Assembly: GCA_020627655.1 (NCBI GenBank)
Contig: JAHDGM010000007.1
Span: 1 to 64,000, forward strand
Reading direction: 5' to 3'
From: Hellea sp.
Lineage (GTDB): Bacteria > Pseudomonadota > Alphaproteobacteria > Caulobacterales > Maricaulaceae
DNA: 64,000 nt
The notes below the pieces were generated by a model. It made no database searches and was not told the origin of the DNA. It saw nothing but the letters and a program-made list of their open reading frames with translations. Both the position numbers and the translations under genes were made by a program. This document shows, piece after piece, positions 46,349-63,450 of this stretch. The first letter of the stretch is position 1; the number at the start of each line of letters is the position of its first letter.

Positions 46349-47944
46349 TTAATTCCCGCCCTGACGGCGCTTAATGTAATCAGAGGCGCTTGTGCTGGTT
46401 CCAGTACCCGTCGAAGATGTCGTGCCGGGTGACGTTGTTGTTGCTGTTTGATCCAGAGGGCTAGGCCTGCTTTGCTGAGTTTGAGCCTGCTGCGTCTGAT
46501 TTTGCTGAGATTGCGCAGATTGGGCAGCTTCCGCAGCGCGTTGTGCCGCTTCGGCGGCTTGTTCTGCGGCGGCTTCAGCAGCTTGAGCAGCTGCCTCGGC
46601 GCTCGCTGTATCACTGGCCTCCGCTGATTGCTGTGCGGCGGCCTGTGCCTGCTGAGCTGCCTGCGCAGCATCAGCGGCAGCGTTGATGGCTTGCGTGCTA
46701 CCGGATTGAATAGCCTGGTCTGCTGCTTGATTAGCCGATTGAGCCGCTTGTTGGGCTGCGGCCTGAGCTGCCTGTTGAGAGGCTTGCTGTGGCGTTGGCT
46801 GTCCTTGTTGTCCTGACTGTGGCCCGGCTTGTTGCGCTGATTGACTTTGGGACTGACCTTGTGATTGGCCTTGGCTTTGTTGTCCTTGCTGTCCGGTCTG
46901 TTGGCCTGCCTGTTGAGCCTGCCCTTGTTGGCCGGATGACTGACTGCCGCCCATCATTGACCCCGGCATCTGACCAGACTGCCCTTGCTGAGTTCCGCTC
47001 TGCTGGCCTTGTCCAGACTGGCCCTGTTGCTGGCTCTGACCTTGGGTACTTTGTCCTTGAGTACCCTGTCCTTGTGAGCCTTGTCCAGAAGGGGCGCCCC
47101 CACCTAGGCTCTTAATACCGTTCATGATCTCAGCGATAGAGCCCGCTGAACCTCCGCGTGTTCCGCTTGGAGAGCCGCTTTGACCAGCTTGTCCTTGCTG
47201 TTGTCCTGCCTGTTGACCACTTTGTTGTCCTTGACCCTGTTGGGCTGAACCGTTTTGGCCATTAGCGCTCCCACCAGCGCCCATTGGCCCGGTCGGTGAT
47301 CCTGTTGGAGAGTTACCCTGACCGCCCGGGGTCTGCCCTTGACCATTGCCGCCGCCAAATTGACCGCTTTTGATAGCTGCCATGATCTGGGCGGCTGTAG
47401 CTGTAGAGCCGCCGCGCATGGTTGAGCTGCGTTGCCCGCCGCTGTTTTGGCCTGAAACGGCTACTTTATTGGGACCTTGCTGTCCTTGACCCTGCTGTCC
47501 GCTGGAACCGTTACCCTTAAGGTCGGTCATAATGACTTCCCAGGCGTCTTTTTCCTGTTTTGCCAGATCAGGATCTGATTTGGCAGCTTCAGACAATTCG
47601 TAAACTTTGCTGGGCTCTTGCCCGGGCGGTGTTTCCGCGATGGCCTTGGCGCGTTCTTTCATCATGTGACGACGGGATTCCTGCGGTAGGCTGTCAACGG
47701 GGCTGACCGGGCCTTGATTAATGCTCCAGCCGCCGCTGCGCGGGCCGAAAATCTTGTCGGCAATCTCATTGACGCTGGTCGTATCTTTTTTCTTACGCGA
47801 GTTTCTCCAATCCTCCTCTGACTGGTCAGTCTGAGTGGTATTAGGGTTAGTGGTCGTCGTATTATCCTGCGCGATAGCATTGCCGGCTAAAAGCGCGGAT
47901 GAGGACACGGAAAAAGCTAAAATAAGCGCAAATTTCTTCATCAT
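46349..47944 (-). CDS. Secreted low-complexity Gln/Gly/Ala-rich protein
   Basis: A protein of about 531 residues with a signal peptide (MMKKFALILAFSVSSSALLAGNAIA). A charged, ordered-looking N-terminal region of about 150 residues follows ('DWRNSRKKKDTTSVNEIADKIFGP'). Then come about 250 residues dominated by Q, G and S, in which two short ordered motifs recur ('AQIMAAIKSG', 'AEIMNGIKSLGGG'). An Ala/Gln/Glu-rich segment of coiled-coil type and a Thr/Ser-rich tail end it. No domain recognised. It may be a flexible envelope or matrix protein. The start uses the double ATG at 47944/47941. Confidence 0.7.
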   Translation of the reverse strand: MMKKFALILAFSVSSSALLAGNAIAQDNTTTTNPNTTQTDQSEEDWRNSRKKKDTTSVNEIADKIFGPRSGGWSINQGPVSPVDSLPQESRRHMMKERAKAIAETPPGQEPSKVYELSEAAKSDPDLAKQEKDAWEVIMTDLKGNGSSGQQGQGQQGPNKVAVSGQNSGGQRSSTMRGGSTATAAQIMAAIKSGQFGGGNGQGQTPGGQGNSPTGSPTGPMGAGGSANGQNGSAQQGQGQQSGQQAGQQQGQAGQSGSPSGTRGGSAGSIAEIMNGIKSLGGGAPSGQGSQGQGTQGQSTQGQSQQQGQSGQGQQSGTQQGQSGQMPGSMMGGSQSSGQQGQAQQAGQQTGQQGQQSQGQSQGQSQSQSAQQAGPQSGQQGQPTPQQASQQAAQAAAQQAAQSANQAADQAIQSGSTQAINAAADAAQAAQQAQAAAQQSAEASDTASAEAAAQAAEAAAEQAAEAAQRAAEAAQSAQSQQNQTQQAQTQQSRPSPLDQTATTTSPGTTSSTGTGTSTSASDYIKRRQGGN

Positions 47945-48089
47945 GGCGTTTCTATAGCACATTTTCCCTGAGCGGGACATGAATGTCAGTTATACCGCAG
48001 ATGAACAGAGTTTTTATTCAATAGAGTTATTAATTACGGTATAAATAAAGACCACCACCTAGGTTCCTAGGCAGTTAAAAGGCACCAAC

Positions 48090-48743
48090 ATGACCAAAAT
48101 CGTAACACGTTCTGTAAGATATGGGATTGCATTCCTGAGCATAGGGGTGCTCTGCAATTGTTCGTCTTTAGACTATGATCCATTGACTACAATAGTTAAA
48201 GACAACCAAATCATTGCGGAAGGTGTCATTGATGACACGACCCCGCAAGTTTTAGGAAGCGCGATTGATCAGAATAACCAAGTCAGAACCTTGGTCCTAT
48301 ATAATGTGCCCGGTTCTGCTGATGATCCTTCCAATTTGCAGATTGCCCGTAAAGTTCGCGCGTCTGGATTAGCAACCTATATTCCAGCTAATGGTATGAT
48401 TGCATCCGGAGGGACGGATTTATTCTTAGCCGGAGTAACACGTAAAATCGAGAAAGGTGCTTGCATAGGTGTCCATAGCTGGGCCGGAGGGAGCCTTTTC
48501 AAGACAATAGAAGGATCTGAACTCCCCAGGGATCACCCTGAACATGAAAAATACCTCGACTACTACAAAGAAATGAACGTCAATCCAGAATTTTACTGGT
48601 ATACCCTTAATGCCGCCAGTGCGGATAATATCCACTGGATGGCAGAGAGCGAAATCAAGAAATATAATATAGGGGAAATTATCAATGGTGGAACGGATGA
48701 TGACATGAAATCCGTTTCAAATTGTGAAATGCGGTTTCCATAG
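48090..48743 (+). CDS. ClpP/crotonase-fold-like secreted protein
   Basis: A 217-residue exported protein with a hydrophobic N-terminus (YGIAFLSIGVLCNCSS), possibly a lipoprotein, though the lipobox is imperfect. The core resembles the COG3904-type periplasmic ClpP-like family: 'VRTLVLYNVPGSADDPSNL' then 'IARKVRASGLATYI', a Ser in 'MIASGGTDLFLAG' where the family usually has its nucleophile, and 'GACIGVHSWAGG' where a catalytic His is expected. Activity is unproven, and the usual Cys-x-Ser-x-Cys around the serine is missing. AAAGG precedes the ATG. Confidence 0.6.
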   Translation: MTKIVTRSVRYGIAFLSIGVLCNCSSLDYDPLTTIVKDNQIIAEGVIDDTTPQVLGSAIDQNNQVRTLVLYNVPGSADDPSNLQIARKVRASGLATYIPANGMIASGGTDLFLAGVTRKIEKGACIGVHSWAGGSLFKTIEGSELPRDHPEHEKYLDYYKEMNVNPEFYWYTLNAASADNIHWMAESEIKKYNIGEIINGGTDDDMKSVSNCEMRFP

Positions 48744-48840
48744 ATTGAAGCATTTAACAAGACTTGAGTTAGAGGGCTTGAGTTTCCGCTATAAATACGC
48801 TTTCATCCGCGGATTAATGCGGAAATATTGGGACAAATAA

Positions 48841-50802
48841 GTGATTGAGCCGACATCAACAGCGGCGGCTGCCGCCGCGAGTAAGGCCTTTGATACCGCG
48901 CGGGCGTTTTGGGAAAGGCTGGGGCCGTCAACCAAGGCGAAAGTCTGGACCAAGCTTGAGAAGAATTTCACCAATTTTTCCGACTATCTTGAGAACACTT
49001 ATGAGCGGGCCTCTACGGTTCAACTTATTTGTTCACGCTCGGTGAATACAAATATCGAGGATATATATGTACCGACTTTCTTCGTTAAAAAAGATGGAAC
49101 GGATAAGCCCATTTCCGACAATGATCTTATCAGCGATATTCGAGACGGAAAACGCGTAGTTGTTCGTGGTAATGGTGGCTCGGGTAAAACTCTGTTTATG
49201 AAACGTCTTTGGCTTGATGTTTTCAATGAACCCAAAGGCAAAATTCCAGTGATGATTGAACTGCGCAAGTTTAATCAGTTTTCTGACATTGATATAGCGA
49301 CTTTGGTACGTAATGCGATTTCGACCTCCAAAAGCATATCCGATGACCTGTTTAAGGAACTGGCCTCGGACGGAACCTTCTTTTTGGTATTTGACGGGTT
49401 TGATGAAGTCGCGGTTGAACGCCGGGACGAAGTCGAAGCGCAAATTCTGGAATTTGAACGCCTCTATAAAAACTGCAATGTGGTCGTCAGCAGCCGCGCC
49501 AATGAAAACTTTGTCGGCTGGCAGGTTTTTCATACTTATGATGTGGTCCCGTTTAAGCGACAGCAGACTTTGGAATTAATTGAAAAAGTCCCGCTGGATG
49601 AGGGGCTTTTGAAACGATTTAAAGCACTGATCACGCCAAAGTTTTTCAATAAATATTCAGAGTTTTTGTCATCACCGCTGCTGGCGCTCATGATGTTGGT
49701 CACCTTTAAACGTAAAGGCGATATCTCGGATATTTCGGATAATATTATCGAGTTTTACGATAATGCTTTTCACGCGCTCTATTCAGAGCATGATGCCATC
49801 AAAGAACAGTTTAAGCGCCCGCATTGTCTGAAGATCAATGACTTTCGCCTGGTGTTTTCCACTTTTTGTCTGTTCAGCTATTACAAAGAGCAGTTTGAAT
49901 TTAGGGAGGCAGAACTTCACGAATTTATTCGCCGCTCCATAGAGCATGTGAATCTGACTAAAGATCCGGATGACAAGATTGATTGCACGGTTGAGGAATT
50001 TCTGCACGAGGTTCTGGATTCTGTGAATCTCATGCGCAAAGACGGCATGCTCTATCTGTTTATTCATAGATCGTTTCAGGAATATTTCGCGGCCTATTGG
50101 ATCATTTATGTGGATTCAAAACGTACGGAAAAACTGCTCAAGGAACTCTGCAAACGGCCGCAAGACAGTGTGTTAAATCTGGGCTACCAGATGAATAAAA
50201 ACAAAGTGGATCAAAACTATGTTTTGCCATTTTATGATCGGTTGATTGATGAAGGTCTGCTGCATAAGACCAAGACGGCAAATACCGGACGCTGGCAATA
50301 TATAGAGAGCTATGCGTTTGAACCTATCTGGCAATTGATCAAATATAAGGATGCAGACAAAGATCAAACTTTGCCGAAGATTACGACCGGATGGAATAAT
50401 GGTGAAGTTGGCGTTTATTACACCAATATGGACAGCCTCGTTTTCAAAAAAGCGCTAAGGCGCGAGTTTTTTCCAACTGTTGGAAAGGCCATGAAACGCG
50501 CGCGGCCCAGCTGGCTCATAAAGGACTTTTATAAGGAAAAGAACTTTACGCCGCTGAGCCTGCGAGCAGAAATCAAAACGGGTCAAATCGCTCTTAAACT
50601 TATTCGTGAAAACAGTGACGCCGAAGATATCACGGTAAAATATTTACACGAAAATCCGAAATTCAAAGCCAAACTTGAAGCCGCCCTCGATGATATTGAA
50701 GCCATGCTCCATGACTTCAATAAAAAGGTCAATCACCACATCTCGACTATTCGTCAAGGCCATGACGAATCCGAAAAGAACCTGGATGATATGTTTTTTT
50801 GA
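48841..50802 (+). CDS. NACHT-family STAND NTPase (bNACHT-like, possible anti-phage)
   Basis: A 653-residue protein. A short helical N-terminal domain (about 1-60) precedes a NACHT module: Walker A GNGGSGKT at 110-117, Walker B FLVFDGFDE at 181-189, and sensor SSRAN at 217-221. Helical and winged-helix-like parts follow, with the typical NACHT block 'LFIHRSFQEYFAAYWI' near 415. The C-terminal 200 residues show no recognised repeats. Bacterial NACHT proteins of this layout (bNACHT) are known anti-phage sensors. Membership of that group is by architecture only. GTG start at 48841 with GGGAC upstream. It lies in an accessory-looking, AT-richer stretch. Confidence 0.82.
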   Translation: MIEPTSTAAAAAASKAFDTARAFWERLGPSTKAKVWTKLEKNFTNFSDYLENTYERASTVQLICSRSVNTNIEDIYVPTFFVKKDGTDKPISDNDLISDIRDGKRVVVRGNGGSGKTLFMKRLWLDVFNEPKGKIPVMIELRKFNQFSDIDIATLVRNAISTSKSISDDLFKELASDGTFFLVFDGFDEVAVERRDEVEAQILEFERLYKNCNVVVSSRANENFVGWQVFHTYDVVPFKRQQTLELIEKVPLDEGLLKRFKALITPKFFNKYSEFLSSPLLALMMLVTFKRKGDISDISDNIIEFYDNAFHALYSEHDAIKEQFKRPHCLKINDFRLVFSTFCLFSYYKEQFEFREAELHEFIRRSIEHVNLTKDPDDKIDCTVEEFLHEVLDSVNLMRKDGMLYLFIHRSFQEYFAAYWIIYVDSKRTEKLLKELCKRPQDSVLNLGYQMNKNKVDQNYVLPFYDRLIDEGLLHKTKTANTGRWQYIESYAFEPIWQLIKYKDADKDQTLPKITTGWNNGEVGVYYTNMDSLVFKKALRREFFPTVGKAMKRARPSWLIKDFYKEKNFTPLSLRAEIKTGQIALKLIRENSDAEDITVKYLHENPKFKAKLEAALDDIEAMLHDFNKKVNHHISTIRQGHDESEKNLDDMFF

Positions 50803-50857
50803 GAGGGTATATAGGCAGAGTCAATAAATGTATTACATGTGAGATGGTCTTGTGATA

Positions 50858-50887
50858 GTAAGCCCGCTAAATACTTAGCGGGCTTAC
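50858..50887. terminator. Perfect 13-bp inverted repeat between convergent genes
   Basis: GTAAGCCCGCTAA, loop ATAC, TTAGCGGGCTTAC. It sits between the NACHT gene and the convergent ribbon-helix-helix gene. No T run follows on either strand, so it may be a bidirectional terminator of weak type or a protein-binding site. Confidence 0.5.
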
Positions 50888-50889
50888 AA

Positions 50890-51225
50890 CTAGGCTACAG
50901 CTTGCCCGTTCTCAAGAATATCCAAAGAAGTGTTAGCTGGAGGCTCATCTTTATTTACAAAGATTGACATAGGTGGTTCCTTGCCAGATTTATCGACAAC
51001 CACAACGTCATTACCCTGAACTACTTCGGCTACGACCCCTTCATACAGAGCTATCGCTTGAATAATCATCTCATGCAGGCTTCCAGCTTGAGTAATATCG
51101 ACGATAGCATTGAGGCGATCTAGGCGATCTGTATCTAATCTAATGCTAACGGTCTTGCGTTCAGGTTTTCGTGTCGCGCGCCATACGCTTTTTGCAAGTG
51201 GGTTTTCGGTATTGTATTCTAGCAT
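50890..51225 (-). CDS. Ribbon-helix-helix domain protein
   Basis: A 111-residue protein. The region 'RKTVSIRLDTDRLDRLNAIV' followed by 'GSLHEMIIQAIALYEGVV' is a typical ribbon-helix-helix fold, found in small DNA-binding repressors and antitoxins. A C-terminal tail of about 45 residues is acidic and Val-rich and of unknown role. The start at 51225 is decided by AGAAGGAG a few bases upstream; the frame is open further but only into low-quality sequence. No toxin partner is evident on its strand. Confidence 0.7.
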   Translation of the reverse strand: MLEYNTENPLAKSVWRATRKPERKTVSIRLDTDRLDRLNAIVDITQAGSLHEMIIQAIALYEGVVAEVVQGNDVVVVDKSGKEPPMSIFVNKDEPPANTSLDILENGQAVA

Positions 51226-51548
51226 TAGCTCTCTCCTTCTAAAACTTCTAGATATACAGCGACTATAGTAAGAGCCAAATTTGTGCTCATTCTTTTTCTT
51301 AAAAACATAATTAAGCTCCATGTTTATATTTTAGTTTTCGCTCGTATATAAGATTAATATCTTAATACAAGTATAAAACACTGTCAAACTACGCAAAATT
51401 AATGCAACTTACTGGTATATATTAGAGATATTTATTGAACATATTTGAATTAAAATAATTCTAAAAAATAGAATTGAAATATTAATGCGTACTCTATATA
51501 TAGGTGCTGTTTGCCAATGTAAACGACTTTAGAAGAAGGGAGGAGCCG
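51226..51548. other. AT-rich divergent promoter region
   Basis: A 323-base gap, very AT-rich, between the ribbon-helix-helix gene (minus) and a cluster of small ORFs (plus). It carries a good plus-strand promoter (51474-51502) and a strong ribosome-binding purine run at 51533-51545. No RNA gene was recognised. Confidence 0.5.
51474..51502 (+). promoter_or_regulatory. Candidate promoter of the small-ORF cluster
   Basis: TTGAAA (51474-51479), a 17-base spacer, then TATATA (51497-51502). Transcription would start about 40 bases before the GTG at 51549. Confidence 0.5.
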
Positions 51549-51954: not shown

Positions 51955-53568
51955 CTACTTCCGCACCACCCGAAACCCGGTAAAGTCATTACTGTCGCCG
52001 CGGCGCTGCATGAGGCGGGCAGAGTAGCGCAGGTCAGCCGGGCCCGAAAACCAGGAGCCGCCGCGCACTGAGCGCTGATTACACGATCCGCGTAGATCCG
52101 GTTCGCCATTTGTCGGTGCGTCCTTTAGGTTCAGCGTATTACAATCCAGCGTCCATTCGGCCACATTTCCGATCATGTCTTTCACGCCGGATTTATTGCC
52201 GGACAGGCTGCCCGTTGGCAGGGTGCGGTCAGAGGCCAGATCATTACATTCGCTGTTAGCCCAGGCAAGACCGCTTTCTGAACCTGCGCCATTGGCAAAG
52301 GCGCAAAGCGCTTTTTTGGACCCGCCCGCATAAAGACCTGTATCGCCGCTCCGCGCTGCATATTCCCACTGCGCTTCTGATGGCAGGCTGTAATTTTTTC
52401 CGGTTTTAGACGACAGCCAAGCCGTATATTTCTGGGCGTCATCCCAGCTGACATTAATCACCGGGCGTTTGCCGCGGCCCCAGCCGTTATCATTACTGAT
52501 GGCTGGGCAGGCTCCTGCTGATACGCAGGCATCCCACTGAGCAAATGTGACTTCGGTAACACCAATGGAAAAGGGCGCGCCGATAATGACCGGGCGCTGC
52601 GGCTTTTCATTAGGACGAGCTCCGTCTTCGGATTCGCCCGCGCCGAGATTGGCGTTTCCGCCCGCCAGCGTCACCATAAGCGGACAGACATCACAATCGC
52701 GAAAGGTCTTGCCCGGTGACGGTTTTAAATCTTCCAGAGCGGCTTTGGCCAGAGGCGCATATTTACTGCTCGGATAGCTGGATAGAAAAGTCTCATAGCC
52801 GGAGACCGTATTATTGGTTTTAGCGGACTGCCAGGCGGCTTCTTCGATGGCGCTGGCTTCGGCGGCTGCGGCATCGGCCTTCATGCGGTTAATCCGCTCC
52901 TGAGCTGTCGGCGCGTTTTTACCCGATGGATGCTTGCCCAGATAATCTTCATAGGATTGGATGCTGTTGGCGGTTTCCGCCGTTTTCCAGTCGCGAGCTT
53001 CCATAGCCGCGCGCTCAGCCGCGTCACGTTTTTGCGCTTCAATGGCAGCTTTCATCTGGTCAATACGTTCCTGAGCTTTGGCCGCGTGTAGACCTTCGGA
53101 CCAGTTTTCAAGATAATCTTCGTAACCCGCTATGGTGTTACGCTTCTCCGCAGTTTCCCAGGCTTTATTGTCATATTTATTGATCTCTTCCTGAGCTTTG
53201 TCTTTGAAGCGGCCATTGGGGAAGGCTTCGAGATATTCACGGTAACCTTCGAGCGTGTCTTTTTCGAGGGCGGCAATCCAAGCCTTTTCATCTTCGGATT
53301 TTGGCGGGGCTTGCTCTTCGCCCTTATCGGTTTGTTCAGCACGCGGCAGTTCAAATGTGCCTTGCGGCAATTCATCATTCACGACAACTTTGGAGAGGAG
53401 CCAGATTGCTGCTATGGCGACCAGGGCCAAAAGCAAGAGACCCAATGTCCATTTTAAAATAGGGGCCCGTTCAGCGCCGGGGGCATAAGCACCGCCGGCG
53501 GGTCCGGATGATCCATTATCACCGCCATCATTGACGGGTTGCCAATCGTTTTTATTGTCAGTGCTCAC
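51955..53568 (-). CDS. Membrane-anchored FGE/SUMF1-like protein
   Basis: A 537-residue protein: disordered cytoplasmic N-terminus, one helix near 37-59 (PILKWTLGLLLLALVAIAAI), then four 35-45-residue helical repeats ('AWIAALEKDTLEGYREYL', 'AWETAEKRNTIAGYEDYL', 'DWKTAETANSIQSYEDYL', 'AWQSAKTNNTVSGYETFL'). A C-terminal sulfatase-modifying/FGE-like domain (about 320-537; 'SIGVTEVTFAQWDAC', 'NVSWDDAQKYTAWLS', 'GNVAEWTLD', 'VRGGSW') ends it. The cysteines that follow GGS in active FGE are absent (GGSWFSGPADLRYSARL), so it is probably a binding rather than oxidising domain. Last gene of the six-gene motor-like operon. Confidence 0.82.
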   Translation of the reverse strand: MSTDNKNDWQPVNDGGDNGSSGPAGGAYAPGAERAPILKWTLGLLLLALVAIAAIWLLSKVVVNDELPQGTFELPRAEQTDKGEEQAPPKSEDEKAWIAALEKDTLEGYREYLEAFPNGRFKDKAQEEINKYDNKAWETAEKRNTIAGYEDYLENWSEGLHAAKAQERIDQMKAAIEAQKRDAAERAAMEARDWKTAETANSIQSYEDYLGKHPSGKNAPTAQERINRMKADAAAAEASAIEEAAWQSAKTNNTVSGYETFLSSYPSSKYAPLAKAALEDLKPSPGKTFRDCDVCPLMVTLAGGNANLGAGESEDGARPNEKPQRPVIIGAPFSIGVTEVTFAQWDACVSAGACPAISNDNGWGRGKRPVINVSWDDAQKYTAWLSSKTGKNYSLPSEAQWEYAARSGDTGLYAGGSKKALCAFANGAGSESGLAWANSECNDLASDRTLPTGSLSGNKSGVKDMIGNVAEWTLDCNTLNLKDAPTNGEPDLRGSCNQRSVRGGSWFSGPADLRYSARLMQRRGDSNDFTGFRVVRK

Positions 53569-53570
53569 AA

Positions 53571-54332
53571 TTATTTCTCGTCTTCAAGGCGCAGGATGAG
53601 ATTATCAAGACAATATTGTCCGGCCTCGTTCAGTGCGCGCTCTTCTTTGGATTGAATGATGGATTGTATCAGGACCAAAATGGCCGACATGATCAGGGCC
53701 ACAAGCGTGGTTGTAAAGGCCACGCCGAGGCGGCTGGTGACCTGATAGAGAAAATCTTCTGATTCCGCATTGGCCGGAACGCCTGCATATTGCAGGGCAA
53801 ACATGATGCCCATTACAGTCCCGATAAATCCAAGAGAAGGGATCAGCCAGGTCAGATATCTCAGCATAGAATAGCGCAGGTCGATCTCATGCATGTAAAG
53901 CTCTAGCGATGAGTTCAAGACAGAAATGGCCTGATCAGACTTTCCAGAGACTTTAAACTGATCCAGTGTGCGCTGAATCATGCGCGGCAGAAAGGCTTCC
54001 TTACCATATTTGCGGCTGGCAATGCCCTCGCGGATTTTATCAATCGTGGTGATATCAAGCTTGCGTCCATCTGTTGGCAGATAACCGCGCTTGAGTTGAT
54101 TTTCTTCATCTGTGGCGGAGCTCCAGCGCAGGAATAATTCGCCAAAACCGAGGAACAAAGCCACCCACATAATGTTCTGAATAGTGAAAGGCCAGAACGA
54201 GGCATCCGCATCCAGCAGGATTTCCCGCAAGGTCTCGCCCATGGTCACGCGCAAAATGCCGATAAAGACAACCGCCGCGATAAAGGCGACCATGTAGACG
54301 AATAAGCGCCGAACAAATCTTGCTTGTTTCAT
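53571..54332 (-). CDS. MotA/TolQ/ExbB-family proton-channel protein
   Basis: A 253-residue inner-membrane protein with helices near 11-30, 52-70, 160-182 and 203-227. 'WLIPSLGFIGTVMGIMFAL' and 'GVAFTTTLVALIMSAI' are the two family helices that form the proton path; a large cytoplasmic loop lies between. Such proteins pair with a one-helix partner (ExbD, TolR, MotB) to turn proton flow into motion. Here the partner genes are the two VWA genes immediately upstream. ATG 54332 has GAGGA upstream and was chosen over a GTG seven codons earlier. No tonB, tolA or flagellar genes are nearby. Confidence 0.9.
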   Translation of the reverse strand: MKQARFVRRLFVYMVAFIAAVVFIGILRVTMGETLREILLDADASFWPFTIQNIMWVALFLGFGELFLRWSSATDEENQLKRGYLPTDGRKLDITTIDKIREGIASRKYGKEAFLPRMIQRTLDQFKVSGKSDQAISVLNSSLELYMHEIDLRYSMLRYLTWLIPSLGFIGTVMGIMFALQYAGVPANAESEDFLYQVTSRLGVAFTTTLVALIMSAILVLIQSIIQSKEERALNEAGQYCLDNLILRLEDEK

Positions 54333-54345
54333 TTTCTGTTCCTCA

Positions 54346-55332
54346 TTAATCACAGACCCCGGATTGTCCCGAAGCTAAAGCCATAAACTGACCATTATTG
54401 GACCGGGACAGGTCTTCCATAAACTCAACTGTGCCGCGATAGTCAAAGTAATTTCCGACAACAACGGTATGTATTTCTTTGCGCCCGCCATTCATACGGG
54501 TGATTTCTCGCACTAACCGGTCCGGTGACAGGCCGTTATTTGCGCTCGGATTGGGCAGGCCGTCACTGACCAGAAATATAGCCTGACCCGGCCCGTTTAT
54601 CATTTTCTGGAACGCATCCAACATAGAGGCGGACCCGCCAAATTGGCGGCTAAGGCTTTTTGAAAATGAAATGGCCTGTGAGCGACTGCTTGAATTTATC
54701 CGTCTGAGACCGGATGTGGGCCAACTGCGAACGCGCGGTCCGCTATCCGTCTGCTGAAAACCAACAACTTGGACAGCGTGATTATCCTGCAGGCTTTCAA
54801 TAATGCGTTCAATAGCCCGGTTAATAGAGGCTTCGTGTCCGCCCATACATTTATTCATATCAACGGCGACAACAATGTCGTCCTTTTTGGTTTTCATACC
54901 CAGGAAGCGAAATGAAACCAATTCTTTAGCCGGAGTAGGTGCCGGTTCAGGATCAGGAATTGGTTCTGGCGGCTCAGGTTCAGGTATGGCCGAAGCGGCT
55001 CGGGCTTTAGCCTGTTTTTCCAAAAGGGCTGCTTCGGCCGCGCGTAATTTGGCCAGCAGTTTATCGGCTTCAGATTTGATATCTGAGACATTAGCTGCAG
55101 CGGCGTCCCGTTTTTTCTGCAGAGCTTTTTTCTGCTCCACCGTTTTAACGGCGCTTTCCTGAGCAGCGCGTGCAAGGTTAGCAATGGCGTTATCCGGGGT
55201 ACGTTCCTGAATTTCCTTTTGGTAGAAAGGCATGAGGACAATCGTCAATAGCGCAAAGGCACCCATGGCAGCCGCAAATAAGTCAATCGACGACAGAGAG
55301 AATATTTCGATATCGCGGGCGCGTTTTTTCAT
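54346..55332 (-). CDS. Membrane-anchored VWA protein with degenerate MIDAS
   Basis: A 328-residue protein. The N-terminal helix (about 15-36, IDLFAAAMGAFALLTIVLM) carries an Asp near its start, as in ExbD/TolR. A coiled coil follows (about 45-112), then a Pro-rich spacer of P-E/D-P repeats (117-134), then a von Willebrand factor A domain (about 139-328). The metal site that reads D-x-S-x-S in active VWA domains is D158-x-N160-x-C162 here, so metal binding is probably lost or altered. It overlaps the intact VWA gene by 4 bases and precedes the ExbB-like gene by 13. Confidence 0.85.
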   Translation of the reverse strand: MKKRARDIEIFSLSSIDLFAAAMGAFALLTIVLMPFYQKEIQERTPDNAIANLARAAQESAVKTVEQKKALQKKRDAAAANVSDIKSEADKLLAKLRAAEAALLEKQAKARAASAIPEPEPPEPIPDPEPAPTPAKELVSFRFLGMKTKKDDIVVAVDMNKCMGGHEASINRAIERIIESLQDNHAVQVVGFQQTDSGPRVRSWPTSGLRRINSSSRSQAISFSKSLSRQFGGSASMLDAFQKMINGPGQAIFLVSDGLPNPSANNGLSPDRLVREITRMNGGRKEIHTVVVGNYFDYRGTVEFMEDLSRSNNGQFMALASGQSGVCD

Positions 55333-56279
55333 CGTGCACGCCCCACAAAGTCACCTTTATTATTCCGCGCCATTTCCTGTAAAAACACAGTCAGGATTTT
55401 GTCCTTGGTATAATCACCGATTGCCACAGTATGTATTTCCGCGCGGCCTCGATTACGCCGGGTCACATTGGTCACAATAGAGCGGGGACTGCCATCATCC
55501 GGCGCGCCGTCACTGATCAGGATAATTGCCTGAGGGTTCAGGTTCAGAGTCTTGAGCATGGCACTTTGGGTTGGCGTGCCGCCGCCAAATTTACGGGGCA
55601 GGCGGTTTACAAAATCCCGCGCGCCAGCAATCATACTCCTTGTCGCTGCGGCTTGGCGTCCGCTGGCGGGATAAGTGCTGTATGAAGGTCCCCCGCGATA
55701 GCCGATAATTACAAAGCGGTTGTCCGGCTGCATCTGATTGAGAATTTCGTTTAAGGCATCTACGACCTTGTCTCTATGGGCCTGCATAGAGCCGGACATA
55801 TCCACGACTATGGCAATATCTTTTTTATTGGTTCCGAGACCCAGAATGGAAAACTCCACCCCGCGATTAACGCTGCGGGGCGGTTCCGGTATGGGGTCTG
55901 GCACAGGATCAGGTGTGGGTTCAGGATCCGGCAGGGGCTGCGGATCTGGGATCACAATTTCGGTGGTGTGTTTGAGCACTTCTTGAAGCTTATGCTCAAT
56001 TTCAGACATGTTCTCTTCTGTGGATTTATACTGCTTATCCATCAGGCGGATTTCGGCGCGTAAAGCCCGAATTTGCGACATGTCCGTTTGCTGGGTCGAA
56101 GCGGCTTCCCGGCGCTTCTTCACCATTTCCTCAAGTTCTTCCATGGAAACATCAGTGCCGCCCTTATTATAATAGGGAAACAGCACTAAAACGATCATGA
56201 TAAAGGCCGCGAGGGCCGCCGCAAACAGGTCGAGTGCCGACATGGAAAAAACAGATATTGTACGCCGTCGGGATCGCAT
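55329..56279 (-). CDS. Membrane-anchored VWA protein with intact MIDAS
   Basis: A 316-residue paralogue of the gene just downstream. It has an N-terminal helix with Asp17 (SALDLFAAALAAFIMIVLVL), a coiled coil (about 44-105), a Pro-rich spacer (111-134) and a VWA domain (about 141-316). The MIDAS is complete: D160-x-S162-x-S164 in VVDMSGSM, Thr235 in GGGTPTQS and Asp257 in LISDGAPD. So it can bind a divalent metal and a ligand with an acidic group. With the ExbB-like channel it would face the periplasm. Gene order and overlap suggest equal expression with the degenerate partner. Confidence 0.88.
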   Translation of the reverse strand: MRSRRRTISVFSMSALDLFAAALAAFIMIVLVLFPYYNKGGTDVSMEELEEMVKKRREAASTQQTDMSQIRALRAEIRLMDKQYKSTEENMSEIEHKLQEVLKHTTEIVIPDPQPLPDPEPTPDPVPDPIPEPPRSVNRGVEFSILGLGTNKKDIAIVVDMSGSMQAHRDKVVDALNEILNQMQPDNRFVIIGYRGGPSYSTYPASGRQAAATRSMIAGARDFVNRLPRKFGGGTPTQSAMLKTLNLNPQAIILISDGAPDDGSPRSIVTNVTRRNRGRAEIHTVAIGDYTKDKILTVFLQEMARNNKGDFVGRAR

Positions 56280-56311
56280 AAGACGTCGTTAAACCATCCA
56301 GTCCGTTTTGA

Positions 56312-57169
56312 CTACCGTCCGCCGAGAATGCGCGACAAAGTCCTAAGCATGGTTTGCTTGCGCTTTTTTTTGGCTTCGCTGTTCAGATCATCAGTGATCT
56401 GAATGGAACTGACCAGAGTTTCCTGATCCATTTCATTATTGATCACATCATTTGAACGTGCCAGCCTGCCATCCAAATCAGTCAGGAATATGGCTTCGAT
56501 GGAATCGAGTTCATTTTCAAAACTGGCAAACTCAATCTCGTCCCGTGTTGTCACCAGGCTATCGGCGTAGGCCTGTACGCTCGGTCCAAAAATTTCGTGA
56601 TCCTGCGCGTTCACGCGAAAGAGCGTATCCGACAAAATCTGGCGCATAAATAATGCGTCTTCAGCAATGACGATGTTAAACTCTGACTCGGTCAATGAGC
56701 TATCATAGGCCTCAAGACTCTCTATCTGACCGGTGAGATAGCTTTCACAGTCCATGGCAAAGTCGATCAGATAACCCATATTCCCGATTGTGATTTCAGG
56801 GGCCGCTTGGCGGAACACGGGGTTGGCAATATTTTCGATAACCTCGGTGACCGGTGTTTCGGCCGTGACAAAACTATCGCCAAAATAATCCAGAGATGAT
56901 TTTAACATGGGTGTGATGTCGCGGCTGAGTTCTTGAGTCAGTTTGAAGAACTGATAGCGCGGCACATGCCCATTATCCGGAAAGCCGGACATAATGGTAA
57001 TGCATTTTTCCTGTTGCGGCGCGGCGGCAATCGGAACATCATTTCCAACATTCTGAGCTTCCTGCGTTATTGTTTCCGCAGCCGTGTTTTCTACAGCCTG
57101 AGTCTCCTGTGCAAAAGCAGTGGTAGTGCCAAGCAGTAACAGCGTTATGAGACTTGTTTTACGGATCAT
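56312..57169 (-). CDS. Periplasmic helical protein of the VWA-motor operon
   Basis: A 285-residue secreted protein with a signal peptide (MIRKTSLITLLLLGTTTAFA, cut before Q). The mature protein is acidic and mostly helical, ends in a basic tail (AKKKRKQTMLRTLSRILGGR), and has two cysteines (near residues 56 and 141). No domain was recognised. It lies 3 bases after the MORN-like lipoprotein gene and 32 bases before the first VWA gene, so it is very probably part of the same assembly. Its molecular role is unknown. Confidence 0.72.
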   Translation of the reverse strand: MIRKTSLITLLLLGTTTAFAQETQAVENTAAETITQEAQNVGNDVPIAAAPQQEKCITIMSGFPDNGHVPRYQFFKLTQELSRDITPMLKSSLDYFGDSFVTAETPVTEVIENIANPVFRQAAPEITIGNMGYLIDFAMDCESYLTGQIESLEAYDSSLTESEFNIVIAEDALFMRQILSDTLFRVNAQDHEIFGPSVQAYADSLVTTRDEIEFASFENELDSIEAIFLTDLDGRLARSNDVINNEMDQETLVSSIQITDDLNSEAKKKRKQTMLRTLSRILGGR

Positions 57170-57172
57170 GTC

Positions 57173-59140
57173 TTAGGCTCCGCTGCGGGTATTAAATGGT
57201 GACATGACTGCAGCTGCATTTGATGCGCCGCCAGTGTCTTTACCGGCACTGTAATTACGAAGTTTGTCAGATTGCCCCGCCTTTGAGACGCGCATGACGC
57301 CATCGGCCTTGCCGCCAGAGAAGTTACCTTCCAGCGCGTAAGAACCAGAGGGTTCATGAATGATCATATAGCCTGGACCATTAGCCATGCCGCCGGACGC
57401 GTAACCATAATATTCAACGGACTTGCCGCTTGCATTTTTAATGACGCCGACACCGTTGCCATTGGCAACACCGCCTTCGCAAACGCCCATCCAGGTGCCT
57501 TGGCTGCCACCTTCATGGTTATAGGCACAGCGCGTGGCGATCGTTTCAAGTGACCGCTGACGATCATTGTAAAGCGTTTTGAGTTTATCTTTCAAATCTT
57601 CGAACCGAATGGCCGTGATGGTTTCGTTTGAATCGATCAGATCGATCTGAACATTAGTCTGCTGCTCAAGGGCAGGGACAATGGATGTCAGATAGTTTTG
57701 TCCAATAGCTTTGGATTCGTTTTTATAGGCAAAAGCTTGAGTACCTGCATAAATGGATGCGTTTACCAGCACATCGGTTAAAATACGTTGTCCGTAATTT
57801 GGTCGGTTGACAATACGGCACCGGCCATAGCGGTCACATTGACGCTCGCTTTGTCCGTTACTGCCTTGGGAAATCGCAACGCCGCTGGCGACCGCACCTA
57901 AAATGGCCAGAGCAGCAGCTTGATTTTGCTTTCGGGCCAGAGCGCGGCGCTTTTCCAAAATGTTGTGTTCAGCTTTTAACATGTCGCGAACCTGCGCGCC
58001 CATTTCACCGTTATGAACACCGTCAAACAATCGTAGAGACTGAACAGAGAGGTACTTTTTCTCAGCGTCTAAAAGACGGATCGCGGAATTATACCGGGCC
58101 AGATAATCGGCATCATTAGAGCCGACAAATGTCAGTGCGGCCAGAGACGGGTCATAAGAGGCAATAGCGGTTGCGCGCTTACCCATAGCTGTTTTTTCAG
58201 ATGCTGTATCATTGATAATATCAATGATACGATTGGCAAAGCCTTTGGAAAAGACAGGCTGCAAAGGATCAACAGCGCCTTTCTGGCCTTTATTCAGGGC
58301 GGTGATTTTGGAGCCGTCCATTTTAATTTTTTCCATTGGCGATATTTGAACTACATTTTCAGGCGCATTCATGGAAAGTTGATGAGACGCGGCTGAACGG
58401 GTTACGTCTTTAGAAATGTAAGAGATGAAATCCAGCTCTGGGACATCCGTATCAAAGCTTCCGGATTGCAGCTCAGTCAATGAGGCTTGAGCCGCTTTAT
58501 ACCCGCCGCCTACAGCATGATCTTTTAAAGGTTTACTGGATAGCAAAACGCCATGTGTCGGCACGGCGGCGCGGTGATCCGTTCTGACAGTTACCATAGG
58601 CGAGATCAGGTCTCCGAATGTCAGGGGATTTTTATCCATCATTTTCTTGGGATCAGGATAAGAATAAGTGGCAAAGTCAACGGTTACCACGCTGGGAAGG
58701 CTTTCTGCCTGGGTAATCGGTTCAGATGTTAACTGACCGTCCGGGCCTAACTTAATTTCGTGCGGTGACAGCAAGACGGAATGTTCAGGCAGGCGGGCTG
58801 CGAGTTCTTTATACAGAGAAAGCGCGAAGTAATTGGATTTGACGACCGAGCTGTCGACAATGTTCTGAGCTTCTGTACTATTGGCTGTTGAAGCTGAAAT
58901 CCGGCCGCCAATAGGAGAGGCCATATAGGCTTCTCTGAACTTATCGCGGGCTTTGCTGTCAACAACGGCCGGATATCGTACCACTGCCATGAGGCTGCCG
59001 GCAGGTGCCTGTGTCTTTAAAGATTGGGTTTGTGTCTTGGTCATTAAGACCGATTGCTTGGAACCTGTGGCCGTGGATGCACATGCCGTTGTCAAAAGTG
59101 TTGTGGCTAATAGCGCCGTGGTTGAAAGCCGTTTATTCAC
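57173..59140 (-). CDS. Lipoprotein with MORN-like C-terminus
   Basis: A 655-residue lipoprotein: signal peptide with lipobox ending LTTAC (Cys20). The long middle region has no recognised domain, but it holds a short hydrophobic stretch (AAALAILGAVASGVAI, about 425-440). The C-terminal part has MORN-like repeats ('GVANGNGVGVIKNASG', 'GGMANGPGYMIIHEPSG', 'GNFSGGKADGVMRV'). A Cys-rich spot 'QCDRYGRCRIV' is close to the helix. First gene of the six-gene operon; its promoter must lie in the 178-base divergent gap before the histidine operon. Probably outer- or inner-membrane anchored in the periplasm. Confidence 0.75.
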   Translation of the reverse strand: MNKRLSTTALLATTLLTTACASTATGSKQSVLMTKTQTQSLKTQAPAGSLMAVVRYPAVVDSKARDKFREAYMASPIGGRISASTANSTEAQNIVDSSVVKSNYFALSLYKELAARLPEHSVLLSPHEIKLGPDGQLTSEPITQAESLPSVVTVDFATYSYPDPKKMMDKNPLTFGDLISPMVTVRTDHRAAVPTHGVLLSSKPLKDHAVGGGYKAAQASLTELQSGSFDTDVPELDFISYISKDVTRSAASHQLSMNAPENVVQISPMEKIKMDGSKITALNKGQKGAVDPLQPVFSKGFANRIIDIINDTASEKTAMGKRATAIASYDPSLAALTFVGSNDADYLARYNSAIRLLDAEKKYLSVQSLRLFDGVHNGEMGAQVRDMLKAEHNILEKRRALARKQNQAAALAILGAVASGVAISQGSNGQSERQCDRYGRCRIVNRPNYGQRILTDVLVNASIYAGTQAFAYKNESKAIGQNYLTSIVPALEQQTNVQIDLIDSNETITAIRFEDLKDKLKTLYNDRQRSLETIATRCAYNHEGGSQGTWMGVCEGGVANGNGVGVIKNASGKSVEYYGYASGGMANGPGYMIIHEPSGSYALEGNFSGGKADGVMRVSKAGQSDKLRNYSAGKDTGGASNAAAVMSPFNTRSGA

Positions 59141-60487: not shown

Positions 60488-61786
60488 ATGAAAACCTATT
60501 TTTGGGATAAGCTTTCAGACATTGAGAAGCGCGAAATTTTATCGCGTCCAGACGGGCTGAATGACGGCAAATTGCTAAGTGCTGTCGCAGGTATCATGGA
60601 TGATGTGAAAAAGCGCGGTGATATGGCTGTTCTGGAATATACCCAAAGTTTTGATGCACCAACCATCCAGACCCTATCTGTGCCGATTTCTGAATGGAAG
60701 GCTGCTTGGAACGCTCTGCCGCGTGAGCAACAAAATGCGCTTGAAATCGCCAGAGACAACGTCAAAACTTTTCACGCCGCCCAGCGCCCAACTTCTATTG
60801 AAACAGAAACCATGCCGGGCGTGATGTGCCGCCGTGAACCCAGAGCTCTTAAAACGGTTGGGCTTTATGTACCGGGCGGAACAGCGCCTTTAGTTTCAAC
60901 CACAATAATGCTCGCTGTGCCTGCGAAAGTTGCCGGCTGTCAAAATCGTGTCATGGTGACGCCTCCGGGTAAGGATGGTAAAATTAATCCAGCTATATTG
61001 GCGGCGGCTTATCTCTGCGATGTGACGGCAGTATTTGCTTGCGGGGGCGCGCAGGCCATTGCGGCGCTGACTTATGGCACTGAGACAATCGCAAAATGTG
61101 ATAAGATCTTTGGTCCGGGGAATGCTTATGTAGCGACTGCAAAATCACGAGCTGCGCAAATTCCCGGCGGACCGGCTATTGATCTGCCGGCAGGTCCATC
61201 AGAGGCCATGGTGATAGCAGATGCCACGTCCAACCCGGTCTTTGTAGCCTCTGATCTATTGTCACAAGCTGAGCATGATAAATTGGCTCAGGTTATTTGT
61301 GTCGTAAGTGATGAAGATGTGGCGGCGGCTGTGAGCGCTGAAGTTAATCGCCAATTGGAGACCTTGCCGCGAGCTGACATTGCCCGCGCCGCTATGGCAA
61401 GCAGCCGGATGATTATTACCGATGATTTTCAACAGACTTGCGATATCGTCGAGGCTTACGCCCCCGAGCATGTTATACTGCAAAACAAAGGTGCCGAGCT
61501 TTTGGCAGAAACTATCGTCAATGCGGGTTCTGTCTTTATTGGCCCTTGGACGCCGGAAAGCGTTGGTGATTATGCCAGCGGTACCAACCATACATTGCCG
61601 ACTTATGGCGCGGCGAGGAATTATAGCGGCGTGACGCTAGAGAGTTATTATAAATATGTGTCTTTCCAGCAATTAACTGCCGCAGGCTTAAAAGCGCTCG
61701 GCCCAACAGTTGAAACCCTGGCAGAAATGGAAGGTTTGGATGCCCATAAGCGGGCAGTTTCTTTCCGATTGGAGGCTCTGAAATGA
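60488..61786 (+). CDS. hisD: Histidinol dehydrogenase
   Basis: A 432-residue zinc enzyme oxidising histidinol to histidine in two NAD-dependent steps. Signatures: 'VGLYVPGGTAPLVSTTIML', 'IFGPGNAYVATAK', 'LLSQAEHD' (zinc and base residues), 'EAYAPEHV' and 'GDYASGTNHTLPT'. Full length. It is translationally coupled to hisCB by an ATGA overlap at 61783-61786. Confidence 0.96.
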   Translation: MKTYFWDKLSDIEKREILSRPDGLNDGKLLSAVAGIMDDVKKRGDMAVLEYTQSFDAPTIQTLSVPISEWKAAWNALPREQQNALEIARDNVKTFHAAQRPTSIETETMPGVMCRREPRALKTVGLYVPGGTAPLVSTTIMLAVPAKVAGCQNRVMVTPPGKDGKINPAILAAAYLCDVTAVFACGGAQAIAALTYGTETIAKCDKIFGPGNAYVATAKSRAAQIPGGPAIDLPAGPSEAMVIADATSNPVFVASDLLSQAEHDKLAQVICVVSDEDVAAAVSAEVNRQLETLPRADIARAAMASSRMIITDDFQQTCDIVEAYAPEHVILQNKGAELLAETIVNAGSVFIGPWTPESVGDYASGTNHTLPTYGAARNYSGVTLESYYKYVSFQQLTAAGLKALGPTVETLAEMEGLDAHKRAVSFRLEALK

Positions 61787-63450
61787 GTAATGTCATGCGT
61801 GATGATGCGGTATGGGCGAATGGAATCGCGCGCCCTGTCATAGCCGGATTTAAAGCTTATAGCGCACGAGGTGCTTCGACGGATGCACTGCATTTGGATG
61901 CTAATGAAAGTCCGTGGGCTCCCCCGCCAGCCGGGCCTAATGAAGCTGCTTATAATCGCTATCCAGCTCAGCAGCCTCCGGTATTAATGAAGCGCCTTTC
62001 AGGTCTTTACGGCGTAGCGTCTGAGATGATCATGTTGGGACGCGGTGCGGATGAAGCCATTGATGTTTTGCTACGTACATTTTGTGAAGCGGGTGAGGAC
62101 AATATTTTGATCTGTCCGCCCAGTTTCGGTTACTTTGATATTGCGGCGCAGATACAAGGTGCAGGCATAGTAAAAGTTCCGCTGGATCAAAATTATGACG
62201 TTGATCAGCGGGCTGTCAAAAAAGCTCTAATGGATAATGACATCAAAGTGGTGATGTTGTGCTCGCCGAATAACCCAACCGGGAATTCAATTGATCGGGC
62301 TTTTGTAAAGTCCCTCTGCATCGATAACCCGGATACGCTTATCTTGGTTGACGAAGCATATGTTGAGTTTTCTAAAAAATCGAGTTTGTCGAACATAATC
62401 GGCGAATATCGAAATTTGGTCATAACCCGGACGCTCTCCAAAGCTTATGGTCTAGCAGGCGTTCGGGCAGGAGTAGCTCTGGCTAATCCCGCGATTATCA
62501 ATTTGATGCTTAAAGTTCTGCCGCCATATCCTGTGCCGCGCCCAGTGGAACAGGCGGTAATGAAAGCTCTCGCGCCATCTGCTATGGCCGTGCATGATAC
62601 ACGCTTGGATATCTGGAAGGCAGAGCGGACGCGCCTTTTAAAAACTTTGCCTAAAAGTGATCTGATCGAAAAAATTTATCCGTCCGATGCTAATTTTATT
62701 TTACTCAAAGCCAAAGACGAAAAAGCACTCCTTGCAGCGCTGTCACGGTTTAATATAAGAATACGGGATTTTCGCTCAAAAATTCCCGGTCACTTCCGCA
62801 TTTCTGTTGGAACGCCCGAAGAAAACGATCTATTATTTAGCGCGCTCGGTATTACGCGAGAACAGGTCAAAAATGAACGCATAGCAGAGGCGTTTCGGAC
62901 GACTAAAGAAACGGATATCTCTGTTCGGGTCAATCTGGATGATCCTTCAAATGTAGCCATTGAAACTGGCCTGGGATTTTTCGATCACATGCTGGAGCAA
63001 ATCGCAAAACATGGCGGTATGGGGGTGACGCTAAAATGCGCCGGAGACCTGCACATAGATAGTCACCACAGCGTAGAGGATACGGCGCTGGCGTTTGGCG
63101 CTGCGCTTAAACAGGCGCTGGGCAATAAAGCCGGGATAGGCCGCTATGGTTTTGTCATGCCTATGGATGAGACACAGGCCAGAGTCGCTATTGATTTATC
63201 GGGGCGTCCGGCCTTTGTATTTAATGGGGATTTCCCGTCGCAAAATGTAGGAGAATTTGCAGCCGAGATGTGCCCGCATTTTTTTCTGAGCCTCTCACAA
63301 GCGCTTGGTGCTTCGATTCAGATTGATGTGAAAGGGGATAATACCCATCACATGATTGAAGCCTGTTTCAAAGGCGTTGGCCGCGCGCTTCGCCCGGCAA
63401 TTTCGCGGGGGCCGACCATGGATATTCCATCCACTAAAGGCGTGATATAG
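61783..63450 (+). CDS. hisCB: Fused histidinol-phosphate aminotransferase and imidazoleglycerol-phosphate dehydratase (HisC-HisB)
   Basis: One 555-residue frame holds two complete enzymes. Residues 1 to about 357 are HisC, the PLP aminotransferase: 'LDANESPW' near 39, 'CSPNNPTGN', 'LVDEAYVEF', and Lys220 in 'RTLSKAYGLAGVRAG' as PLP lysine. About eight linker residues follow. Residues 366-555 are HisB (IGP dehydratase): 'TKETDISV', 'GLGFFDHML', 'DSHHSVEDTAL', 'RPAFVF', 'THHMIEACFK' and 'PSTKG', with the metal-binding histidines present. Both active sites look intact. The fusion fits the common hisGDCBH order with a lost stop. It differs from E. coli hisB, whose fused partner is a phosphatase. 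The next gene starts 1 base before its end. Confidence 0.95.
   Translation: MSNVMRDDAVWANGIARPVIAGFKAYSARGASTDALHLDANESPWAPPPAGPNEAAYNRYPAQQPPVLMKRLSGLYGVASEMIMLGRGADEAIDVLLRTFCEAGEDNILICPPSFGYFDIAAQIQGAGIVKVPLDQNYDVDQRAVKKALMDNDIKVVMLCSPNNPTGNSIDRAFVKSLCIDNPDTLILVDEAYVEFSKKSSLSNIIGEYRNLVITRTLSKAYGLAGVRAGVALANPAIINLMLKVLPPYPVPRPVEQAVMKALAPSAMAVHDTRLDIWKAERTRLLKTLPKSDLIEKIYPSDANFILLKAKDEKALLAALSRFNIRIRDFRSKIPGHFRISVGTPEENDLLFSALGITREQVKNERIAEAFRTTKETDISVRVNLDDPSNVAIETGLGFFDHMLEQIAKHGGMGVTLKCAGDLHIDSHHSVEDTALAFGAALKQALGNKAGIGRYGFVMPMDETQARVAIDLSGRPAFVFNGDFPSQNVGEFAAEMCPHFFLSLSQALGASIQIDVKGDNTHHMIEACFKGVGRALRPAISRGPTMDIPSTKGVI

Follow-up and report, generated by a model that had tools for sequence, protein, structure and literature searches.

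A predicted proton-driven trans-envelope motor with an unequal pair of VWA-tipped arms in Hellea sp., and its link to Ser/Thr phospho-signalling genes in other lineages

The window analysed here, i.e. the whole stretch of 64,000 nucleotides (nt) from Hellea sp. (contig JAHDGM010000007.1, positions 1 to 64,000), carries a six-gene operon, A-B-C-D-E-F, whose best explanation, which we hold to be rather probable, is a trans-envelope machine of the TolQ/ExbB/MotA type driven by the proton motive force (PMF), in which two unequal VWA proteins would form the axle, F would be the remnant of a kinase and a former phospho-switch would have been lost. The gene content and order, their conservation, the domain identities, the loss of a metal-site motif in one arm and the absence of signalling matches above cut-off are established. 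To our knowledge, the PMF-driven trans-envelope motors are few: Ton, Tol, Mot, Gld, Zor and Agl. An original prediction made from this DNA had stated that no described system has this set of genes, which does not hold, the core having been predicted already in 2025 (Mol Biol Evol; PMC12204202). What is new beyond that publication is the inequality of the metal sites, the phospho-signalling link and the exchangeable tips.

Results

The cassette and its conservation

The six open reading frames (ORFs) are found at 51955-59140, all on the minus strand (ORF list of the window), and encode, from A to F, a lipoprotein, a periplasmic protein, VWA1, VWA2, an ExbB-like protein and a protein like formylglycine-generating enzyme (FGE) (Table 1). 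The same-strand operon of the original prediction is thereby recovered with all its six ORFs in place. Its description of the spacing stands for the gaps of 2-32 nt (A-B, 3 nt; B-C, 32 nt; E-F, 2 nt) and for the 4-nt overlap of C and D, and has to be amended for D and E, which overlap by 8 nt with the GTG start of E and are separated by 13 nt with the ATG start, as in the relatives. As a full gene set the six were incomplete, a seventh gene, G, having been missed.

The relatives were collected with a profile of E whose seed sequences came mostly from Robiginitomaculaceae; of the 149 loci, the best 80 were kept, all in named genomes (34 in Robiginitomaculaceae or close relatives and 46 outside); the proportions given below describe this sample. 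The order A-B-C-D-E-F is kept in about 30 of the 34 Robiginitomaculaceae-group loci, as far as the contig ends permit, in the genera Hellea, Litorimonas, Algimonas and Robiginitomaculum, and the flanking genes vary (trpR-hisG-hisD at several Hellea loci, others elsewhere). When A was searched for independently and by itself, it was detected in 37 of 137 family genomes, including nearly all the listed genomes of the window's genus, adjoining B in 30 of 30 loci and C in 29 of 30, the sole exception being a contig end. From this recurrence of the order and the adjacency of A, B and C, we take the cassette to be a functional unit that is common in the genus of the window and of patchy occurrence across the family. 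The co-occurrence of the six genes in other genomes, on which the original prediction depended, is thus borne out, and the grouping is not a matter of chance. Two genomes, G801 (contigs C18 and C14) and G788 (C2 and C12), each hold two full-length copies of A on different contigs, which suggests a second cassette.

The motor subunit and its two unequal arms

Protein E matches Pfam MotA_ExbB (PF01618; E-value 5e-12, 46-48 bits against a cut-off of 22.9), in agreement with its earlier assignment to the MotA/TolQ/ExbB homologues. Among the E proteins, Thr179 and Thr216 are invariant (80/80 each) and Thr215 is found in 79/80; these residues would form a Thr ring. The N-terminal helix of the VWA proteins has the consensus RxIxIFSMSALDLFASALGAFILLxxLFPYY, in which the Asp (Asp17) is present in all 115 family members with a residue at that position, a Ser precedes it by three residues in 115/115 helices and a Phe is kept in 118/118. 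The SHLS motif is absent from the trans-pore helices of C and D, which were read directly. No match to the ExbD, TolR or MotB families was found among the six operon genes (Pfam, ORF list), the relatives have no extra gene between C and E, and E is linked to helix proteins across several phyla. The Asp-bearing helix had been noticed in the original prediction, and the invariant Thr and Asp residues, the missing exbD/tolR gene and the strict co-occurrence together argue for the proton-driven motor of the 5:2 type with VWA-ended partners that it had put forward. Since further ExbB/TolQ-type genes are located on contigs C71 and C51 of the host genome, E is an additional motor of this organism.

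The two arms, C and D, are about 30% identical and always adjacent, and both have the architecture described earlier, i.e. a helix, a coiled coil, a Pro-rich spacer and a VWA domain. The latter is clear in C (Pfam VWA_3, E-value 2e-12) and weak in D (E-value 6e-6, slightly below cut-off). In all 32 Robiginitomaculaceae C proteins scored, the metal ion-dependent adhesion site (MIDAS) is intact (DMSGS and GGGTPT). At these positions, the D proteins of the same family have D[ML][NS][KR]C and GGSASM, and none of them shows DxSxS, the scoring pattern being misplaced in two D rows; the D protein of the sister locus L082 is likewise degenerate. Since the MIDAS is intact in C and broken in D throughout, the conserved pairing of an active and a dead VWA domain suggests that the axle is a heterodimer in which one head grips a ligand. 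Two Cys are invariant in D, one in the broken metal site and the other at the C-terminus.

The coiled coil of C extends over about residues 43-107 and the Pro-rich stretch over about residues 108-137, and their combined reach, about 19 nm as estimated from a count of residues, would be enough to come near the outer membrane. The earlier idea that the machine loads VWA domains across the periplasm finds no support; a better fit is a motor whose force is passed on by tethered VWA tips. In L096, L100, L113, L116, L020 and a Rhizobium plasmid, the helix and the coiled coil are present without a recognisable VWA domain; among relatives, the axle is conserved and the tip is exchanged. In L020 (8094-10202), from a genome of the same order, an ExbB-like gene is followed by a protein of this kind, in which the helix and coiled coil end in a tip other than VWA. 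DUF2135 was considered as the identity of the non-VWA tip and was not retained, its matches being sub-threshold and confined to two relatives.

The phospho-signalling genes and the probable origin of F

Near E, the 46 loci outside Robiginitomaculaceae carry an FHA gene in 44 cases, a Ser/Thr kinase in 38 (a count that includes the L082 pseudokinase) and a PP2C phosphatase in 37, and all three kinds are found in 24 of the 31 outside loci of at least 12 kb. The linkage is tight: 86 of 88 FHA copies are on the strand of E, and in 42/46 loci an FHA gene lies at most 300 nt from E on the same strand, with a median gap of 2 nt. The kinase is often fused to an FGE domain, as in the full locus L096, which by Pfam comprises FHA, MotA_ExbB, FHA, PP2C, a kinase fused to FGE-sulfatase and a trypsin-FHA protein; the Rhizobium plasmid locus carries the same signalling set. 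Beside E, none of these three genes was found in any of the 34 Robiginitomaculaceae-group loci, and in single-family searches the host genome gave no FHA match, no PP2C_2 match and a Pkinase match only below the curated cut-off.

Protein F matches Pfam FGE-sulfatase (E-value 1e-44) and has an internal transmembrane segment and no lipobox. Catalysis by FGE involves two active-site cysteines in the RGGSW...C...C region. In F, the RGGSWFSG stretch is invariant in six orthologues and no Cys is present in that region, so that the FGE fold of the original prediction stands, and an active formylglycine-generating enzyme is rejected for want of the catalytic Cys pair. The nearest solved relative is PvdO, closer than the PorK chains (about 5e-16), and the match to NCBIfam GldK (TIGR03525; E-value 3.6e-19) reaches 69 bits, below the cut-off of 350. 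Eight Cys are invariant in F, and a D-F disulfide, as in GldK-SprF, is possible.

In view of the kinase-FGE fusions in other lineages, F looks like the transmembrane and FGE part of a sensor kinase from which the kinase has been removed. The F protein of L082 bears on this point: it has 808 residues, its N-terminal half matches a kinase profile (50 bits), and it has HGTFGPGS in place of the HRDIKPGN of active members, i.e. the HRD motif is missing. L082 groups with Robiginitomaculaceae in the E tree, which is unrooted and has long branches. The degenerate kinase half of its F protein supports a putative stepwise loss of the kinase. The link of the motor core to a kinase/phosphatase switch, and its loss in this group, appear to be undescribed: a kinase-PP2C-FHA-ExbB-VWA cluster was not found in the literature, of which most subscription journals lay outside coverage, so that this absence is no proof.

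The other genes of the cassette

Protein A has a signal peptide with Cys 20 and Ala at +2, a lipobox read from the sequence whose Cys is invariant in 31 homologues. In its AlphaFold2 model, residues 532-649 match MORN4 with a Z of 10.9 over 108 residues (Foldseek probability 1.00), and a profile match to MORN4 (6jle; E-value 2.5e-4) points the same way, in keeping with the MORN-like lipoprotein read earlier. Neither A nor B belongs to a Pfam family; the MORN part of A is unseen by Pfam, and its N-terminal domain has no Pfam or profile match, the fold search mostly picking up the MORN part. B is a secreted protein, as the periplasmic assignment had implied, and its confident model (predicted local distance difference test score 85) is all-helical and has no meaningful match in the PDB.

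The N-terminal 150-200 residues of G are conserved. In about 20 relatives, a G homologue on the strand of F follows this gene, as a rule at a distance of 16-70 nt. In the host genome, G is split from F by about 4 kb, and the relatives lack the inserted genes at this place. One of them encodes a NACHT-domain ATPase (48841-50802, plus strand), which matches an anti-phage NCBIfam model partially and at a score far below the cut-off; beside it, the ORF 50890-51321 (minus strand) has a ribbon-helix-helix-like segment, KTVSIRLDTDRLDRLNAIV, and no Pfam family over cut-off. The insertions between F and G differ in other Hellea (L049, 10228-12907; L057, 12002-12421), and the F/G junction is therefore an insertion-prone spot. 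Elsewhere in the window, at 61783-63450 (plus strand), one ORF appears from its sequence to be a HisC-HisB fusion, i.e. histidinol-phosphate aminotransferase and imidazoleglycerol-phosphate dehydratase, in a his cluster whose first gene is TrpR-like.

Table 1. Positions, in the window, of the cassette genes, of selected segments and of the F/G insertion
Feature	Description	Position	Strand
A	Predicted outer-membrane lipoprotein; alpha/beta N-terminal domain, long helices, C-terminal MORN-repeat domain	57173..59140	-
B	Secreted periplasmic all-helical protein; C-terminal helix of 88 residues	56312..57169	-
C	VWA1; Asp17-bearing trans-pore helix, coiled coil, spacer rich in Pro, VWA domain whose metal site is intact	55329..56279	-
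C, trans-pore helix	Residues 11-38, includes Asp17	56166..56249	-
C, MIDAS motif	DMSGS, residues 160-164	55788..55802	-
D	VWA2; architecture like that of C, including Asp17; degenerate metal site (DMNKC, GGSASM); C-terminal Cys (GVCD)	54346..55332	-
D, broken MIDAS motif	DMNKC, residues 158-162	54847..54861	-
E	MotA/TolQ/ExbB-family channel subunit; four hydrophobic segments; ATG start likely at 54332	53571..54353	-
F	Inner-membrane anchor (residues 45-63), BamD-like repeats, periplasmic FGE-fold domain; without kinase half	51955..53568	-
G	Seventh cassette gene; secreted Gln/Gly/Ala-rich protein; start likely at 47944	46349..47980	-
F/G insertion	Lipoprotein-like ORF, NACHT ATPase, small DNA-binding-like ORF; in host genome, outside cassette	48090..51321	

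Discussion

The proposed mechanism

The model presented here infers the formation of a complex, its rotation, its ligand, its output and the direction of the evolutionary change. By homology, E would form a pentameric channel in the inner membrane. Since the operon has no ExbD, TolR or MotB gene, the pore would be filled by a dimeric axle, made up of the N-terminal helix of C and that of D with their pore Asp residues. This axle would be turned by the flow of protons past Asp17 and the Thr ring, and the VWA heads would reach towards the outer membrane on the coiled coil and Pro-rich spacer. The head of C would probably grip a ligand through its metal site, most likely A or a partner of A. The head of D, whose metal site is lost, is probably a structural or regulatory partner, which would make the motor an unequal heterodimer. 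The FGE-fold periplasmic domain of F may have been retained as a docking or sensing module after the disappearance of the kinase half. Because other lineages hold the motor together with FHA, PP2C and an intact kinase in one operon, Thr phosphorylation probably served as the switch of the ancestral machine, and Robiginitomaculaceae would have lost this switch and gained A, B and G. The output would be a force exerted on the outer membrane, probably through A.

Several points weigh against this explanation. The E tree is unrooted, the host TolQ being too distant as an outgroup (a branch of 10 changes per column), so that the direction of kinase gain or loss rests on the L082 pseudokinase and not on the tree. 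The loss of the MIDAS in D may reflect a different mode of ligand binding. Protein E has no sequence match to any solved structure, and the literature gives no phenotype for any member, PMC12204202 saying as much of the family it describes first.

Known systems and alternative explanations

The closest known system is the family of trans-pore helix vWA and TolQ-like proteins of PMC12204202, in which transmembrane-tethered vWA proteins, mostly in heterologous pairs with a pore Asp, are tightly linked to tolQ-like genes without tolR/exbD, and for which AlphaFold 3 predicts a TolQ-like pentamer holding a helix-VWA pair with the two Asp within a Thr ring. The window shares with it the TolQ-like gene beside a transmembrane-tethered vWA gene, the heterologous pair, the pore Asp, the conserved Thr and the lack of tolR/exbD/motB and of SHLS. 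Loci of Idiomarina (L115) and Pseudidiomarina (L120) are also among those recovered with the E profile, and these genera are the group of the Idiomarina loihiensis query used in that publication for the second vWA family. On the strength of these shared features and this recovery, the locus belongs to that family by all the features testable in its sequence. It differs by the additional envelope genes A, B, F and G, by one VWA domain with a destroyed MIDAS and by the lack of kinase, PP2C and FHA; the text of PMC12204202 contains no mention of kinase, phosphatase, FHA domain or MIDAS.

With ExbBD-TonB and TolQRA, the window has in common the superfamily, the PMF-driven 5:2 motor logic and a periplasm-spanning arm; however, here the arm is part of the axle protein, E has four hydrophobic segments, a VWA domain takes the place of the ExbD/TolR periplasmic domain, and the SHLS helix of TonB/TolA is missing. 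The TerY-P triad (VWA, PP2C, kinase) recurs as a combination in distant relatives of the locus, but there an ExbB-like motor is accompanied by arms of the membrane helix-VWA type, which no PADLOC model matches, and the window has neither kinase nor PP2C.

The original prediction had named ZorAB as the nearest known logic, rightly noting that the OmpA-type domain and the effectors are absent; Zorya is only a distant relative, the family of PMC12204202 being nearer. Both systems have a MotA-family protein and, as its dedicated axle, a protein that ends in a binding domain, and a Zorya-like anti-phage system, in which the motor would sense a disturbance of the envelope and trigger an effector, could draw on the weak matches of E to ZorA models (best E-value 4.7e-5) and of C and D to ZorB (about 0.01, over the helix and coiled coil only), on the patchy presence of the cassette and on the NACHT gene inserted beside F. 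We consider it very unlikely: the window lacks the OmpA-type domain, the long ZorA tail and the effectors (ZorC/D or ZorE), the VWA arms of the window and of its relatives match no PADLOC model at 1e-5, no relative of E was found in phage records or viral contigs (three plasmid records only), nearly all the listed genomes of the genus have the cassette, and the relatives lack the NACHT insertion. A defence system was likewise unsupported by PADLOC run on the window and its relatives, where the kinase matches are generic.

A gliding, secretion or surface apparatus like GldKLMN of Bacteroidota, whose motor would move F and the lipoprotein, with G as exported or moved cargo, is by analogy conceivable and in our judgement unlikely. 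GldKLMN/PorKLMN is also a PMF motor tied genetically to an FGE-fold protein, GldK is a moving, force-bearing part of that machine (PMC12635249), and the GldK and PorK matches of F, the outer-membrane lipoprotein, the secreted Gln/Gly-rich protein and the invariant Cys of F and D would suit it. However, F is anchored in the inner membrane and is no lipoprotein, PvdO is its closer match, the cassette has no GldL/M/N-like gene and FGE-fold domains are common adaptors. The tight linkage of kinase, PP2C and FHA genes outside Robiginitomaculaceae could also mean that E forms, with the VWA proteins, a channel that senses a ligand and does not generate force, with the kinase and FHA elsewhere reading out a VWA-gated ion flow; yet the signalling genes are missing in 34/34 Robiginitomaculaceae loci, which retain the motor and the arms, and the motor residues are invariant, which makes this quite unlikely. 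That the genes are chance neighbours without a joint function is hardly credible: Robiginitomaculaceae are related and some of the synteny is inherited, but the order is kept where the flanks differ, A is never found without B, and the linkage of E with helix proteins spans several phyla.

Significance

The force-generating motor with unequal arms would then be one form of a wider theme, that of widespread envelope motors placed under Ser/Thr phosphorylation and equipped with swappable tips, of which Robiginitomaculaceae have shed the switch and kept the unequal VWA pair together with their own lipoprotein and secreted protein; we regard the chances for and against this broader view as evenly balanced. 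In most of the outside lineages sampled, a motor family predicted in 2025 is tied to kinase, phosphatase and FHA genes, which suggests a route by which such motors may be turned on and off, and Robiginitomaculaceae offer a natural deletion of this phospho-switch. Furthermore, the pairing of an intact with a broken metal site makes the question of two different axle proteins in a 5:2 motor directly testable.

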